Part shown: positions 28,002-34,301 of the stretch, in pieces | Numbering within the stretch: position 1 is the first letter of the stretch | Layout of the letters: the number at the start of each line of letters is the position of its first letter | Position numbers and translations under genes: made by a program | Notes under the pieces: generated by a model | What the model was told of the DNA's origin: nothing | Databases searched by the model: none | What the model saw: the letters and a program-made list of their open reading frames with translations, nothing else | Origin: a virus | Length of the DNA: 43,263 nt | Reading direction: 5' to 3' (one strand) | IMG/VR virus record: IMGVR_UViG_3300044825_002018 | Coordinates: 1-43,263 of that record

Positions 28002-28471
28002 TAAACTTCTATCGCCTCAAGCTCTGCAAGTGTTTTTGCTTTTTTAATAGCTATTTTTTTTGATAGTCTCTGCTCTTCCATTTGCGCCGCAATATTTCTG
28101 AGTGCTGTTTCTCTTTCAAGAATTGTATTTGCCGCTTCGTCTAGATCCGCCGCTTCTCCAGCTTGCACGCTAGCATTTAATAAAGGGTATTCCCCAGGAT
28201 CATTGGCTAAATAAGCTTTTGCTTCTTGCGCTTTTAATAAATAAATCATATCCATAAACGCGCCTGGAGTAAGAATTTTAACCCTTTGATTTGAAAAATA
28301 CTGATCTACTTCTGAAGCTTTTCTTTTTTTTGCCATTTCCAAAAGTGCTGTATCTTTTTGTTTCTTGGTAGGCTCAAAACCATCTTGAAACGTCAAAACG
28401 CCATCAGCGATAGTAAACCCGCCGTGGTCCGCTTTATAAAAAACTGCTATGTCGATTAAATCATTATTCAT
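28001..28471 (-). CDS. Tail fibre assembly chaperone-like protein (DUF4376-like)
   Basis: 156 aa. The N-terminus (IAVFYKADHGGFTIADGVLT, FQDGFEPTK) resembles the 'fy....ggfy....' start of small fibre-assembly proteins, and the helical middle (LEMAKKRKASEVDQYFSNQR, FMDMIYLLKAQEAKAYL) and C-terminus (LAELEAIEV) fit the DUF4376/chaperone layout. It lies next to the fibre gene 28471-29556 and upstream of the lysis module, where such chaperones normally sit. Expression is coupled to the fibre gene by TAATG. Confidence 0.6.
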   Translation of the reverse strand: MNNDLIDIAVFYKADHGGFTIADGVLTFQDGFEPTKKQKDTALLEMAKKRKASEVDQYFSNQRVKILTPGAFMDMIYLLKAQEAKAYLANDPGEYPLLNASVQAGEAADLDEAANTILERETALRNIAAQMEEQRLSKKIAIKKAKTLAELEAIEV

Positions 28472-29556
28472 TAGCTAAACTCCATTACTCTCAAAACTGA
28501 GCCCGTGTAAATTATTGATTGATCGCCAGATGTAACCCTGTGCGCGATCCTATAATAAGGTGTCGCGCTATTGTTATTGTGCTTTATTAAAAAGCTTACT
28601 GAAGATCTATTGTCTATTACAAATTGTTCTGCTAGTTCTCTAACTCTTAAAGTTGATCCTGTATAAACAGTTGAAGTACCAGCTCCAGTGCTAGGGTTTG
28701 CTCGGTGTGTAACTCTGTAGTAAGGTGTCGCGCTTACTGTAGTATGTCTAAACGAATCAGAAATAAAAACTTGTTGAGTTGATGATGTCGCGCCACCTAC
28801 CCCTTGATTTGAAGTATAAGTTCTCAAATTTGACCAAGAGCTATTGTCTGTTGAAAATTCTAAAGCTATTTGATTTGAAGCTCCTGCGTCTGTGTCTGTA
28901 ACATTTGTATCAATTCCTAGCTCTAAATATCTAACATTTGCGCCGTTTATTGGTGAATAACTAATATTTAAACCTGTTACTTGATAGCTGGTTGAAGTTG
29001 TACTAGCATTAGTGCCAAGGGTTTGATCTGTAACTTTTACCTCTTTTGCACCTGCTCCAAGATCTGCTTTTCTGGTGAATGTTTTTATAGTTGTCCAATT
29101 TGAGTTGTCGGTTGAATATTGAAGATCTAGAAAGCCCTCGGCCGCTGAGCCATCTGGATCGTTTACGTTCCAATCAATATAACCGAAAAGATAGCGATCA
29201 TTTGCGCCGCTTATTGGACTATATGAAACCGCTAATCCGCTCGCTGTCGCTGTAGTAGCCGTAATAGTTGAATCAGAGCCTAAACTAGCTTCTGTGTTTT
29301 TTACCATTATTCCATCAAAATTTTGGACTCGGTTATCAATAATATTTTTAATTGCTGTATTTAATTGATTTAAACTTGCGTTATTTTGGCTTAAAGCTCC
29401 AATTCCTGAAGCAGGATCTAAAACCACGTTTACCAGCTCTTCTTGGATTGCATTCATGCAAGAAGCGTCTACGATTGTACCTAGCACTCCAGTTGATGGA
29501 TTTCCGTCGGTATAAAGATTGCCTGCAATTTGTGAGCCGTTATCTACTCGTTTCAT
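28471..29556 (-). CDS. Tail fibre protein with internal repeats
   Basis: 361 aa. The first ~80 residues (MKRVDNGSQIAGNLYTDGNP, ASCMNAIQEELVNVVLD) are a recurring fibre N-terminus. The rest contains repeated beta units: SYSPISGANDRYL / SYSPINGANVRYL, LDLQYSTDNSNWTTIKTF / ALEFSTDNSSWSNLRTY, and TPYYRVTHRANP..VYTGSTLRVRE / TPYYRIAHRVTS..IYTGSVLRVME. Such repeats indicate a domain duplication within the receptor-binding part. It is followed by its chaperone and preceded by the DUF2341/LamG gene. Confidence 0.7.
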   Translation of the reverse strand: MKRVDNGSQIAGNLYTDGNPSTGVLGTIVDASCMNAIQEELVNVVLDPASGIGALSQNNASLNQLNTAIKNIIDNRVQNFDGIMVKNTEASLGSDSTITATTATASGLAVSYSPISGANDRYLFGYIDWNVNDPDGSAAEGFLDLQYSTDNSNWTTIKTFTRKADLGAGAKEVKVTDQTLGTNASTTSTSYQVTGLNISYSPINGANVRYLELGIDTNVTDTDAGASNQIALEFSTDNSSWSNLRTYTSNQGVGGATSSTQQVFISDSFRHTTVSATPYYRVTHRANPSTGAGTSTVYTGSTLRVRELAEQFVIDNRSSVSFLIKHNNNSATPYYRIAHRVTSGDQSIIYTGSVLRVMEFS

Positions 29557-29570
29557 AATTTCATTATAAC

Positions 29571-30914
29571 CTAATTCCTTGGAGCGTAAAGCTTATACGG
29601 ATGGTTACTAGGTAAATTGTTATTTCCGCCAAACCATTTCCAAGCTAAATAGCCCTCGATTTTTTGCCGATCTGAATCAGTCAAAGTATTTAACATCATC
29701 AGCTCTGCAAGATCGCCCTGGAATGTACCGCCAATATTGAGATTGGGAATCTGTTCAATAGTTACGTTTCCAGTGCCTACGGATACATTTTGATCAAAAT
29801 CTAAAACTAAATTAGTATTAGCCGCGTTCCCAGTTGATCCTATTGCTGGTGTCAAAGCTTCAATTTGCGGAGGGTTTTGGGTTTGAATTAAACTTATATC
29901 GTAAAAAGTACTTGGTGAGCTTAAATTATTGTATTCGCTTAAAATCCAAGCCGCACTCAATTGTACTGGAGCTATTCGAAATTCCTCAACCTGCCCTAAA
30001 AACCAGTTTGCTTTTGAACCATCACGCCCAAATAGATTAAATGTATCTCCCCCTGTCCAAAGTGTTCCAGTCGAATCAGTAGCAGTTTGCTGACTCCCAT
30101 TTTGGTATATGTAGCCAGTGCCTCCATTTTTTGCTGTGCCTACCACATGAAAATAAGAACCTAATGTAAATGTAGAATTTGCTGGAAGATTTGCAGTTGC
30201 ACCATCAAAATAATAGTGTTCAAATTTACTAGATGTTATTCTTAGATTTTCAGAAAAACTAGCATTACTATTATCAGTTCCTGAATTTTTTACAGTTATT
30301 GCACCATTAGTAGTAGTTGGTTTTATGTATGTTGAAAATGTATATTCTGTCAAATCTGTTGGATCTGCTACCGTTAAATAATAATTTGTGCCATCAACAT
30401 CTAAAGATTTACCAATTGGACCATCATTTAAACTTGTTATTGCTGGAGTACCAAGAACGGAAGCTGAAAAACCATTACTTGCAGAATTTATAAAATTTGT
30501 ACCAGTTGCAATATTTCCAGCTGGAGTATATTCGTTAAAATGATAAACAATTCTATAGATAGAATTCCAAACATTGTAAGCTCCAAAAGTTGCATTTTTA
30601 GCGGGATTGGTTGCGCTTGCATTTCCAAAATAAATATAAAAATCAGTAGTAGTTGAATTACTTAAATTATCAGCTCTAAAATATAATTCACCTGTTGAAG
30701 TTCCCGTATTGATTGAAACCAATTCTCTTGGAACCTCTGTAACTTCATCAGCCAAAGTTATTCTAATGTCTCCGCCATCTGCTTTTATATTAGAAAAAAA
30801 ATCAGATCCAAGATTAGCTAAATTTAGATAAACTGGAAAATTTGTTAAAGATCCACTTTGTACCCCAATAGTAATTTTTTTTCTATAAAACCAGTTTGTA
30901 TTGTACCAAGCCAT
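29571..30914 (-). CDS. Adhesin-like tail protein: DUF2341, LamG, partial Ig-like domain
   Basis: 447 aa. Residues 1-105 are DUF2341 (MAWYNTNWFYRKKITIGVQS, TDFYIYFGNASA). Residues ~155-345 are a LamG/concanavalin-like domain (LDVDGTNYYLTVADPTDLTE, GSYFHVVGTAKNGGTGYIYQ, WFLGQVEEFRI). A stretch at ~350-395 (LTPAIGSTGNAANTNLVLDF, DQNVSVGTGNVTIEQ) has the N-terminal half of an SbsA-type Ig domain. The end (DLAELMMLNTLTDSDRQKIE, GYLAWKWFGG...LPSNHPYKLY) is a LamG C-terminal tail common in marine phages. Sugar binding is expected. The start overlaps the YmfQ-fusion stop by one base. Confidence 0.75.
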   Translation of the reverse strand: MAWYNTNWFYRKKITIGVQSGSLTNFPVYLNLANLGSDFFSNIKADGGDIRITLADEVTEVPRELVSINTGTSTGELYFRADNLSNSTTTDFYIYFGNASATNPAKNATFGAYNVWNSIYRIVYHFNEYTPAGNIATGTNFINSASNGFSASVLGTPAITSLNDGPIGKSLDVDGTNYYLTVADPTDLTEYTFSTYIKPTTTNGAITVKNSGTDNSNASFSENLRITSSKFEHYYFDGATANLPANSTFTLGSYFHVVGTAKNGGTGYIYQNGSQQTATDSTGTLWTGGDTFNLFGRDGSKANWFLGQVEEFRIAPVQLSAAWILSEYNNLSSPSTFYDISLIQTQNPPQIEALTPAIGSTGNAANTNLVLDFDQNVSVGTGNVTIEQIPNLNIGGTFQGDLAELMMLNTLTDSDRQKIEGYLAWKWFGGNNNLPSNHPYKLYAPRN

Positions 30915-33217
30915 TAAGTAACCTCAAAATTCCAATTTTCTAAACCGCTGTAAGCTGTGATCGCGCCAGGATCTACTTTTACTCTAATCTTGCTATTCGC
31001 GCTTAAATCATTCGCTGGATTTATTGTAACTATATCATTTACAAAAGAAACCAAAGATCCGTTTGTAATTGCAATTTGTTCTAATAAAATATTAGGATTG
31101 CGATAAGGATCAATCGTAAGCCCTGAGCCAGTTGAGTAATATAATTCGCTAATAATTTGACCATTTAATCCTAATCTAGTTCTAGTACTTTCAATGCCTA
31201 GATAAACAATATTCTGGTTACTGACTGAGCCGCTATAGCTTAAAGATTTTTCTTTTTTATAAACTGCAATTCTTGCATTAATTGGATTCTGACTAATTTG
31301 TTTTTTATAATAAAATTCGCCATTAACTAAAATTTCAGCTCTTCCGCTAGTACTTAAGTTTACAGTTCCATTAAAGTTTTTAACCCAATTATCAGCGTTT
31401 AAAGTTGTTCCTGTTAGCTTATATCTAACCACCGCATTTGGATCATTTATAAAAAGTTGATTTTCAAAAAGCACCATTGAACTAGCATTAATGCCAGTAT
31501 TCGCCGCTGTCTCTAAATATAAACCATTTGCTAAATTGTAACTATTTGCTTTATTTATTAACTTGCCAGCTTCAGTAAGCCATAAAGTGCCATTTGCCCA
31601 AGTTAAGCCGCTAGGACTTGAATAACCGCTTAAACCCTCGCTGGTAAACGTTGAGCCATTCCAAACAAAAATATCACCAGCTCCAGCCGCGCGTTTGTTT
31701 ATATAAATATTCGTCCCATCGCAAGCAAGTTTATTGCAATTTGTCGCGCCTGTTCCTACCTGACTAAATGCGTTTGTATTAGGATTGTATCTAATTAGCT
31801 TGCCGTTTTGTCCATCTGCAATATAAATAAATCCATCGCCTGGATTGTAGATTAAATCTATTAGATCCGCTGAAGCATTAACTGTATTTGTATATTCGTT
31901 TGCTGTCGTTCCATCCCAAACTAAAATTTGGTTTACAGTTCCACAAACTGCATAAAGCTTATTGTTAGCTACAATCAAAGGCCCTCTTGGAGCGCGATTC
32001 GTAAGTCCCGCCGCTACGTCTGTCCAAGTGCCGTTATTGTTTAATCTCCAAAGTCCATTATCTGCACTTAAATAAAAATTGCCATTAAAATAAGCTATTC
32101 CATAAATTGTAAATTGTCCCGCCAAAGTTAGTAAACTTGAATAATCAAAACCTTGGTAAAAATCACTCAATAAAACGCTATTTAATTGATTGGATTGCGC
32201 GTTTAATTGATACTGATTTCTATCGAATAATTTCCCGCCGCCTGAAGTAATATCCATTACTGCAAAAGCGTGTATCCCATTATCCGCGCTCATTTGTGTA
32301 AGATTTTTTACTGATAAAGTTTCTCCAGTAGTAAATCTTGCTACTGGTTTACCATTAAAAGCATTTAAAACTTTTGTAGGTTGTTTTGCCGCGTCTGCTT
32401 GGATTGCATTTCTATTTGCTTTTTTATCAGTCCAAGTGCTTAAAGCTCCAGCAGTAGTAAAATCTGTCCCATCAAACCAAGTAAACATACTTGATAAGCC
32501 GCTCGGTGTCCAAGTATCAGCCAGTTCTAAGTTTGCTGTAATGTTAGCTTGCCCTTGAATAAATCTTATTAATGAAATTGCGCCTACCATCGCCACATCG
32601 ACATATAAAGAGCCGTCTATGTTTTGAACTACATCTTCATAAGAAAAAATTATACTTGTGTGAGCTGGCTTTACTTGATTTAAAACACACTCTAATAGTG
32701 CGTTTGAAAAATATATTAGTCTGTCGCTGGCTCTTGATAAACCAGCTCTAAAAAAGCTAAGTGTATTAGTTCTTGCTCTTACATTCCAAGCATAAGCAAA
32801 ACCATTTGCTAAAACTCTATCCTGGCAACGATTGCGGCCCGCTCTAAACTGTTGAAATCCATCTGATACTTTTACTAAAAATCCCGCCGCTTTTGCTACC
32901 TCTTGAAAATATATCCGATCTGATCCACCGAGTGATATTAATCTGGCTAAAATAGCGCGCTTAAGCTCTTCTGCACTAGATGATAAACCTTGACAACGAT
33001 GATCACCAAGCGCAATTTCTACCCACTCTGAAATTAATTCAGTAGTAGTATAAGGATTTATTTCTCTTAAAACTCTTAAAGCTTCCTCTTCAAGCCTTGC
33101 AAATTCTATTGATTCACCAGAAATAAGTTTTTGTAAATTGCTATTTGGGTTTGGATTCCACGCTGAACCTTGAGGAATCAATTCATTTAATAAATTTTTG
33201 TATGCTATCGAATCCAT
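30914..33217 (-). CDS. Baseplate protein (YmfQ/gp48-like) fused to adhesin domains
   Basis: 767 aa. Residues ~1-215 are the YmfQ/DUF2313 domain (LIPQGSAWNPNPNSNLQKLI, ISEWVEIALGDHRCQGLSSS, LKRAILARLISLGGSDRIYF), the Mu gp48 component normally ~190 aa long. Beyond it are a LamG-like region (SSMFTWFDGTDFTTAGALST, ~240-345), a beta-propeller-like series of short repeats (~350-570; YNPGDGFIYIADGQNGKLIR, LTWANGTLWLTEAG) and a C-terminal half of an Ig-like domain (DIVTINPANDLSANSKIRVK, DPGAITAYSGLENWNFEVT). So the wedge protein directly carries a large receptor- or glycan-binding extension. Function of each part is inferred from pattern. Confidence 0.75.
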   Translation of the reverse strand: MDSIAYKNLLNELIPQGSAWNPNPNSNLQKLISGESIEFARLEEEALRVLREINPYTTTELISEWVEIALGDHRCQGLSSSAEELKRAILARLISLGGSDRIYFQEVAKAAGFLVKVSDGFQQFRAGRNRCQDRVLANGFAYAWNVRARTNTLSFFRAGLSRASDRLIYFSNALLECVLNQVKPAHTSIIFSYEDVVQNIDGSLYVDVAMVGAISLIRFIQGQANITANLELADTWTPSGLSSMFTWFDGTDFTTAGALSTWTDKKANRNAIQADAAKQPTKVLNAFNGKPVARFTTGETLSVKNLTQMSADNGIHAFAVMDITSGGGKLFDRNQYQLNAQSNQLNSVLLSDFYQGFDYSSLLTLAGQFTIYGIAYFNGNFYLSADNGLWRLNNNGTWTDVAAGLTNRAPRGPLIVANNKLYAVCGTVNQILVWDGTTANEYTNTVNASADLIDLIYNPGDGFIYIADGQNGKLIRYNPNTNAFSQVGTGATNCNKLACDGTNIYINKRAAGAGDIFVWNGSTFTSEGLSGYSSPSGLTWANGTLWLTEAGKLINKANSYNLANGLYLETAANTGINASSMVLFENQLFINDPNAVVRYKLTGTTLNADNWVKNFNGTVNLSTSGRAEILVNGEFYYKKQISQNPINARIAVYKKEKSLSYSGSVSNQNIVYLGIESTRTRLGLNGQIISELYYSTGSGLTIDPYRNPNILLEQIAITNGSLVSFVNDIVTINPANDLSANSKIRVKVDPGAITAYSGLENWNFEVT

Positions 33218-33218
33218 T

Positions 33219-34301
33219 TTATAACCAGGTTATAGTCCCCATAATCGGAACCTGTCCAAGTGTGTACTGCACGTTTGCGCTAGGAACCGATACCACGTTA
33301 TCATTTTCACCCGCCGCGTTTGAAACTGCTTCCCTAATTTTAGATATCAATAAAGTCCAGCCTACAATATTTCCGCCTACTGTATCAGCGGGTTTGCGCT
33401 CGCGTGCTAGTAAATCTTTTAAAGCATTTGTTATATTCGCTCTGATCTCTGGAGTGTCTGGGTTGATGTCTATCGTAAAATTTTGTGCTGTGGTTGCTAC
33501 TGCATTAACCGATAAACTCGCTGTAATTGGCTTCCTGCTTGGATCTGAAATATAATTAAAAACATTTGTTACCACCGTATTTGATGGAACGATATTATTC
33601 TCATCGGTTGAAGTTAAATATATCCCTACTGTCCCTGCGCCGTTTAATAAGGGTATAACGTAAGCTTCGCCTACGCCTGAAACCGATTCCGCCCATTGTT
33701 TATAATCGTTTGCATTTCCGCCGTGTGGAGGTGTTTGAATTCTATTTATAATCCGCTCCCTGAGCTGATCGTCTGTTTCTTGATCTAAGCCGCCAGTTAG
33801 TCCGCCCGCCGCTACTGTTACTGAGTTATTTATAAATTGAATCGGATTCAAAAGACTTAAAGAGCTGGAGGCCGCTTTATTGCCTGCGATTCCTGGAGCT
33901 AATGCAATTATTGGAGCCGTAGCAGTTCCAAGCGCAATAGTTACGCCAGCAGTAGTTTTATAAGTTATATCATCATCACTGATCAATAAAGTACCCGATG
34001 GAATTAAAGTTCCATTTGTGCCCGTAAACGTAGCATTTCCAGCCGCGTAAGTGCCAGCGTTTCTAGCAACGCCGTAAACATTCGCCCAAGCATTTAAAAA
34101 TTCACCAATCGCATTTGATGGAAGAGCTTCTTTTGATAATGTGTTTAAGTATCCGTAAAGCCCATAAAATGCCCCAGCGTTTGCGTTTGCTATTGCTTTT
34201 AAAAAAGAGCCATCCAGAAATGGAGCTGAATTTAATTCACTTTGAAGATCGGTTTCAATCCTGGAGATAATTTGCTGTAAAGTAGGTTTGATTAATGGCA
34301 T
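33219..34301 (-). CDS. Baseplate J-like protein (Mu gp47)
   Basis: 360 aa. The family signature is clear: ISRIETDLQSELNSAPFLDG, AFYGLYGYLNTLSKEALPSN, GEFLNAWANVYGVARNAGTY, then GLDQETDDQLRERIINRIQT, PPHGGNANDYKQWAESVSGV and GTVGIYLTSTDENNIVPSN. It forms the baseplate wedge with the gp46-like and YmfQ proteins and holds the fibres in contractile tails. The length is typical. The gene lies one base before the YmfQ gene, so expression is coupled. Confidence 0.9.
   Translation of the reverse strand: MPLIKPTLQQIISRIETDLQSELNSAPFLDGSFLKAIANANAGAFYGLYGYLNTLSKEALPSNAIGEFLNAWANVYGVARNAGTYAAGNATFTGTNGTLIPSGTLLISDDDITYKTTAGVTIALGTATAPIIALAPGIAGNKAASSSLSLLNPIQFINNSVTVAAGGLTGGLDQETDDQLRERIINRIQTPPHGGNANDYKQWAESVSGVGEAYVIPLLNGAGTVGIYLTSTDENNIVPSNTVVTNVFNYISDPSRKPITASLSVNAVATTAQNFTIDINPDTPEIRANITNALKDLLARERKPADTVGGNIVGWTLLISKIREAVSNAAGENDNVVSVPSANVQYTLGQVPIMGTITWL

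Follow-up and report, generated by a model that had tools for sequence, protein, structure and literature searches.

A recombination joint probably fixed in a phage receptor-binding cassette, with two domains halved between adjacent genes

In invertible tail-fibre cassettes and shufflons (Gin/Cin, Rci), recombination alters the C-terminal tips of fibre genes, and some split proteins, for example, pilins and split inteins, work by fragment or donor-strand complementation. Recombination inside domains usually ruins a fold. In phages of the Mu/SfV type, the baseplate wedge protein Gp48 (YmfQ) is followed by fibre genes. Finally, fragments are exchanged among tail fibre and spike proteins, with boundaries inside genes and a hot spot at host-facing genes (Smug et al., 2023; PMC10684548). 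The locus described here shares features with each of these systems. With the Mu/SfV type it has in common the J-Gp48-fibre order and homology of Gp48 itself; however, the Gp48 of close relatives measures 193-213 aa with no extension, whereas here the protein reaches 767 aa with a LamG domain part, a propeller, and half of an Ig domain, and a further gene, B, is present. The mosaicism of Smug et al. resembles the present case in the exchange of fragments, the boundaries inside genes, and the host-facing hot spot, but there whole domains move, whereas here two domains are cut mid-way and their complementary halves lie in adjacent genes. As in the invertible cassettes, recombination has altered the C-terminal tips of fibre genes, but in our case all pieces lie on one strand in one orientation, with neither long or strong inverted repeats nor crossover-site repeats at the joints. 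The likeness to split-protein complementation is that one beta-rich fold would be made whole by two chains; in contrast to the known examples, the completion would be reciprocal and would involve two different domains simultaneously.

The window, which is the whole analysed stretch of 43,263 nucleotides (IMG/VR record IMGVR_UViG_3300044825_002018), contains the tail locus of a contractile-tailed phage with baseplate genes of Mu/SfV-like type. On the minus strand, the baseplate gene J is followed by genes A and B and then by the tail-fibre gene C. The features are as follows.

33219-34301, minus strand: baseplate gene J, adjoining gene A
30914..33217, minus strand: gene A, 767 aa; Gp48/YmfQ baseplate domain, LamG N part, beta-propeller, and Ig C half
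32636..33217, minus strand: A residues 1-194, Phage_Mu_Gp48 (YmfQ) baseplate-anchoring domain (Pfam 1.8e-18; phrog_203 baseplate wedge subunit 2.5e-46)
32183..32515, minus strand: A residues 235-345, LamG N part (LamG profile 6-100 over A 235-326, 38.9 bits)
31298..32182, minus strand: A residues 346-640, kelch-like beta-propeller within LamG (Foldseek, E about 1e-8)
31097..31297, minus strand: A residues 641-707, probable middle of A's LamG, up to the junction (7.9 bits alone; a continuous alignment if read on into the B tail)
31091..31096, minus strand: left junction in A, codons CCT AAT (PN), from register scoring
30917..31096, minus strand: A residues 708-767, C half of an SbsA-type Ig domain (Big_5), from profile alignments and dN/dS against a second phage, L002
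30922..30925, minus strand: GAGG, Shine-Dalgarno-like site for B within the end of A, from sequence
29571..30914, minus strand: gene B, 447 aa; DUF2341, complete LamG, Ig N half, and orphan LamG C-terminus
30555..30914, minus strand: B residues 1-120, DUF2341 region (Pfam 22.1 bits, slightly below cut-off; L002 homologue 27 bits, above)
29910..30407, minus strand: B residues 170-335, B's own complete LamG (Laminin_G_3 profile 1-150/151, 2.8e-14)
29742..29888, minus strand: B residues 343-391, Ig N half, ending in the shared PN codons (Pfam and intact-homologue profile)
29742..29747, minus strand: right junction in B, codons CCC AAT (PN), from register scoring
29574..29747, minus strand: B residues 390-447, orphan LamG C-terminus comprising last strand, helix, and HPYK (72 bits to LamG profile; codon changes against L002)
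29557..29573, minus strand: B stop and conserved TAGG-TATAAT (TTAGG-TATAAT) spacer before gene C, common to relatives without the cassette; fixed right edge
28471-29556, minus strand: tail-fibre gene C (C361), 361 aa

Residues 10-194 of A, at its N-terminus and with J adjacent, match PF10076 (Mu Gp48/YmfQ) with 67 bits against a cut-off of 37.4. A carries the baseplate anchor, and no anchor is recognisable in B. The propeller of A matches kelch-type and designed six-bladed propellers (Foldseek) and appears as an in-frame insert inside the LamG domain (31298-32182). The stop codon of A and the start codon of B overlap in TAATG, and a GAGG lies shortly before the ATG, both inside the Ig half; the end of A and the TAATG are identical in L002, a phage contig from another metagenome. 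A and B are probably translationally coupled.

The earlier note had recognised complementary halves of an Ig-like domain at the ends of A and B, and profile alignments bear this out. In Pfam, residues 346-387 of B cover positions 2-43 of Big_5 with 27 bits, above the cut-off of 23.6, and residues 721-764 of A cover positions 57-103 with 15.4 bits, below it; neither protein has a full-length Big_5 match. On a profile of six intact homologues, generic Ig sequences from plasmid and phage collections that were selected by B's half alone, residues 343-389 of B align to model positions 14-60 and residues 707-754 of A to positions 61-108, so that the halves abut at 60/61 and jointly cover the profile, in order and without loss. 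Joined in silico at the PN codons, the two halves score like one intact domain, with 76 bits and one continuous alignment over model 16-109; singly they reach 44 and 31 bits. The switch had previously been placed at EQI, with a GAACA-ATT microhomology in the DNA as evidence. We rejected this crossover because joining at EQI is in the wrong register, dropping 9 residues and scoring 64 bits, and because the 8/9 match of the two DNA words is at chance level, being reached by 18% of random pairs of A and B windows. The PN codons, CCTAAT at 31091-31096 in A and CCCAAT at 29742-29747 in B, fit as the putative true switch point. In L002, the Ig match of A begins at model position 50, about 10 positions earlier than in the A of the window, which could reflect a small overlap between the halves.

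The tail of B that follows the Ig half had been described as a LamG tail, and comparison with LamG loci and the LamG profile agrees that it is a LamG C-terminus. What the earlier note missed is that, judged by these alignments, a LamG domain is also split, reciprocally to the Ig domain, A carrying its N part (residues 235-345, with a weak match at 641-707) and B its last strand and the helix at its C-terminus (residues 390-447). As a query, the tail of B (GDLAEL...DRQKIEGYLAWKW...HPYK) retrieved 48 other phage loci, and by sequence and LamG profile the tail was preceded by a LamG-type jelly roll in every one of them and by an Ig domain in none. Residues 220-345 of A, used as a separate query, match the N part of the same proteins; that is, the LamG N part of A finds its counterpart far upstream of a B-type tail within single intact proteins. 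A LamG domain of the EGYLAWKWG type has the jelly roll and then the GDxAE strand and DRQKIEGYLAWKW helix on one chain, and here these elements are divided between A and B. With the propeller removed, at limits (A residues 346-640) that were drawn by eye and that underlie this length test, the LamG of A together with the tail of B spans profile positions 6-257 in about 234 residues; the median of 32 intact domains is near 240 (225-277). The LamG side of the argument is less firm than the Ig side, because the middle part of A is weak alone (7.9 bits). Since both cuts fall in loops whose length varies among intact homologues, they lie where a chain break would be best tolerated.

L002 contains both genes and both joints, with A diverging by 5-8% in DNA and with open frames. 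The short shared words at the joints might suggest an assembly chimera in the window, but the same two joints in a contig of another metagenome, at that divergence and with open frames, leave this explanation almost no credit, and we regard it as ruled out, barring a single error common to the two assemblies. When the tails were compared with those of L002, the 58 codons of the orphan LamG tail showed 13 synonymous changes and 0 nonsynonymous ones (dN 0.007 and dS 0.58 over B residues 388-447), and the Ig C half (A residues 714-767) had a dN of 0.008 and a dS of 0.23 (0.229); as the cassette occurs in two sequences only, the window and L002, this test of selection is a single comparison. Judged by these codon changes, purifying selection acts on both orphan tails, and it constrains the orphan LamG tail more tightly than the complete lectin domain of B, the part that has diverged between the phages (dN 0.37, DNA identity about 55-65%). 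The contrast between the Ig half of A and the rest of A in the comparison with L002 was not significant (Fisher p = 0.68). Because L002 keeps both joints, and keeps the tails nearly without amino-acid change, the arrangement is neither an artefact nor a product of decay.

Between the window and L002, A and the last ~90 codons of B are 84-97% identical in DNA, and the core of B is about 55-80% identical between flanks of 91-95%. B thereby shows the sharp within-gene shifts in similarity to a relative that define domain mosaicism in receptor-binding proteins. The divergence island, 29910-30914, corresponds to the DUF2341 and LamG core of B and extends from the start codon of B to where the Ig half begins; this core may have been exchanged between the two phages or may have run apart. 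A second divergence island lies in the middle of C361 (28725-29025), at about 68-80% identity between flanks of 92-96%. Phage receptor-binding proteins commonly shuffle domains (PMC10684548), and with parts of B and C361 visibly exchanged, A and B might have acquired truncated tails separately, each serving as a stand-alone tip and fitting the other by chance. However, given that halves of two different domains both fit, one of them with zero residues lost, that all 48 other tails of the B type follow a LamG jelly roll and never an Ig domain, and that two independent truncations are unlikely to abut within a few residues, we consider independent mosaicism improbable.

Five relatives (L004-L008), whose J is 85-92% identical, reach the site, and all are without the cassette: a bare Gp48 of 193-213 aa is followed directly by gene C. 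The stop codon and TAGG-TATAAT spacer before C are closely alike in these relatives and after B. In the window, the cassette has a LamG piece at either end, one after Gp48 and the other flush with the TTAGG-TATAAT before the next gene, and between the PN codons lie 1,349 bp that read as a B unit in circular permutation, with the Ig C half first, followed by the stop and overlapping start, DUF2341, LamG, and the Ig N half. Based on these observations, we propose that the ancestral A would have consisted of a Gp48 anchor and a LamG domain holding a propeller, and that it would have taken the contiguous 1,349-bp unit into a surface loop of that LamG. The unit may have come from a circle, by a single integration, or from a donor with B-type genes in tandem, by two crossovers, joined at the PN-coding spot. 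The outcome would be A as Gp48-LamG_N-Ig_C and B as DUF2341-LamG-Ig_N-LamG_C, each with half of two domains.

There is good support for a past recombination from which each gene emerged with half of the other's domain; the insertion route is what we infer from the layout. The earlier note had likewise called for a past recombination with complementary halves, and this part stands, but it envisaged neighbouring receptor-binding genes swapping their C-terminal tips. A reciprocal exchange of this kind, between intact genes, would yield the same four half-domains from genes that are adjacent on one strand, but it would take two double crossovers in which both stop codons are joined cleanly, and the LamG end still lies where it is expected, ahead of the following gene. 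Nor is there a repeat or recombinase-type site at the joints, for which reason site-specific recombination or inversion was also rejected. Because the LamG pieces lie at the cassette ends and the PN-to-PN segment makes up one permuted B unit, insertion into the LamG loop of A is the more economical account and fits the layout better than two tips swapping, and we consider the tip exchange unlikely. Searches of viral and genome collections yielded no unsplit A, no donor B, and no relative with the unswapped order that the earlier note had suggested seeking, L002 being the only other sequence with the cassette, and among the fetched loci there was no donor with tandem Ig- or DUF2341-bearing genes. 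As a whole, the best explanation, to which we give a probability of roughly 60%, is a recombination joint fixed in a receptor-binding cassette by insertion of a B unit, the two chains perhaps pairing.

The likeliest function, which has less support than the insertion route, would be that B docks on the baseplate-anchored A, the two chains rebuilding both domains. The LamG N part of A would pair with the LamG C-terminus of B, and the Ig N half of B with the Ig C half of A, and this pairing would fasten the variable lectin of B to the baseplate through A. Since the complementary halves are conserved, co-folding of A and B is their simplest use. The fuller proposal, that one recombination event locked A and B together by mutual completion of the split LamG and Ig domains and so mounted an anchorless variable lectin on the baseplate, we put forward tentatively, as a possibility with rather less than an even chance. 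AlphaFold models of the single chains, from alignments of 17 rows, had a mean pLDDT of 52 for A (residues 195-767) and 50 for B; what can be trusted is limited to the propeller, the DUF2341 region, portions of the LamG N part of A, and the terminal helix of B, and the tails, of low confidence in single-chain models with such thin alignments, carry no information on pairing.

The presence of cut halves in adjacent genes, persisting in two phages with almost no amino-acid change, suggests that a break has been turned to use. If the chains complete each other, the case would show how a single step can supply a phage with a new receptor-binding subunit that is swappable and has its attachment ready-made. 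Domain shuffling in receptor-binding proteins is well documented (PMC10684548). In the part of the literature covered, full-text searches for split, inserted, or complementing tail proteins and for mobile Ig domains gave no precedent for adjacent tail genes with reciprocal halves of two domains, which is weak evidence of absence. The signature, complementary domain halves in neighbouring genes, is searchable in other phage genomes.

Three further observations concern the surroundings and wider family of the cassette. The TAGG-TATAAT directly before gene C, conserved in all relatives, resembles an extended -10 promoter. The Gp48 domain of A (32636-33217) is itself mosaic, its first ~50 residues being like those of L004-L006 and its middle (DRIYFQEVAKAAGFLV) like that of L008. 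In another phage, two LamG genes whose tails are of the EGYLAWKW type directly adjoin each other in tandem (L044:2654-4213), which shows that such exchanges have tandem lectin fibre genes available to them as substrates.
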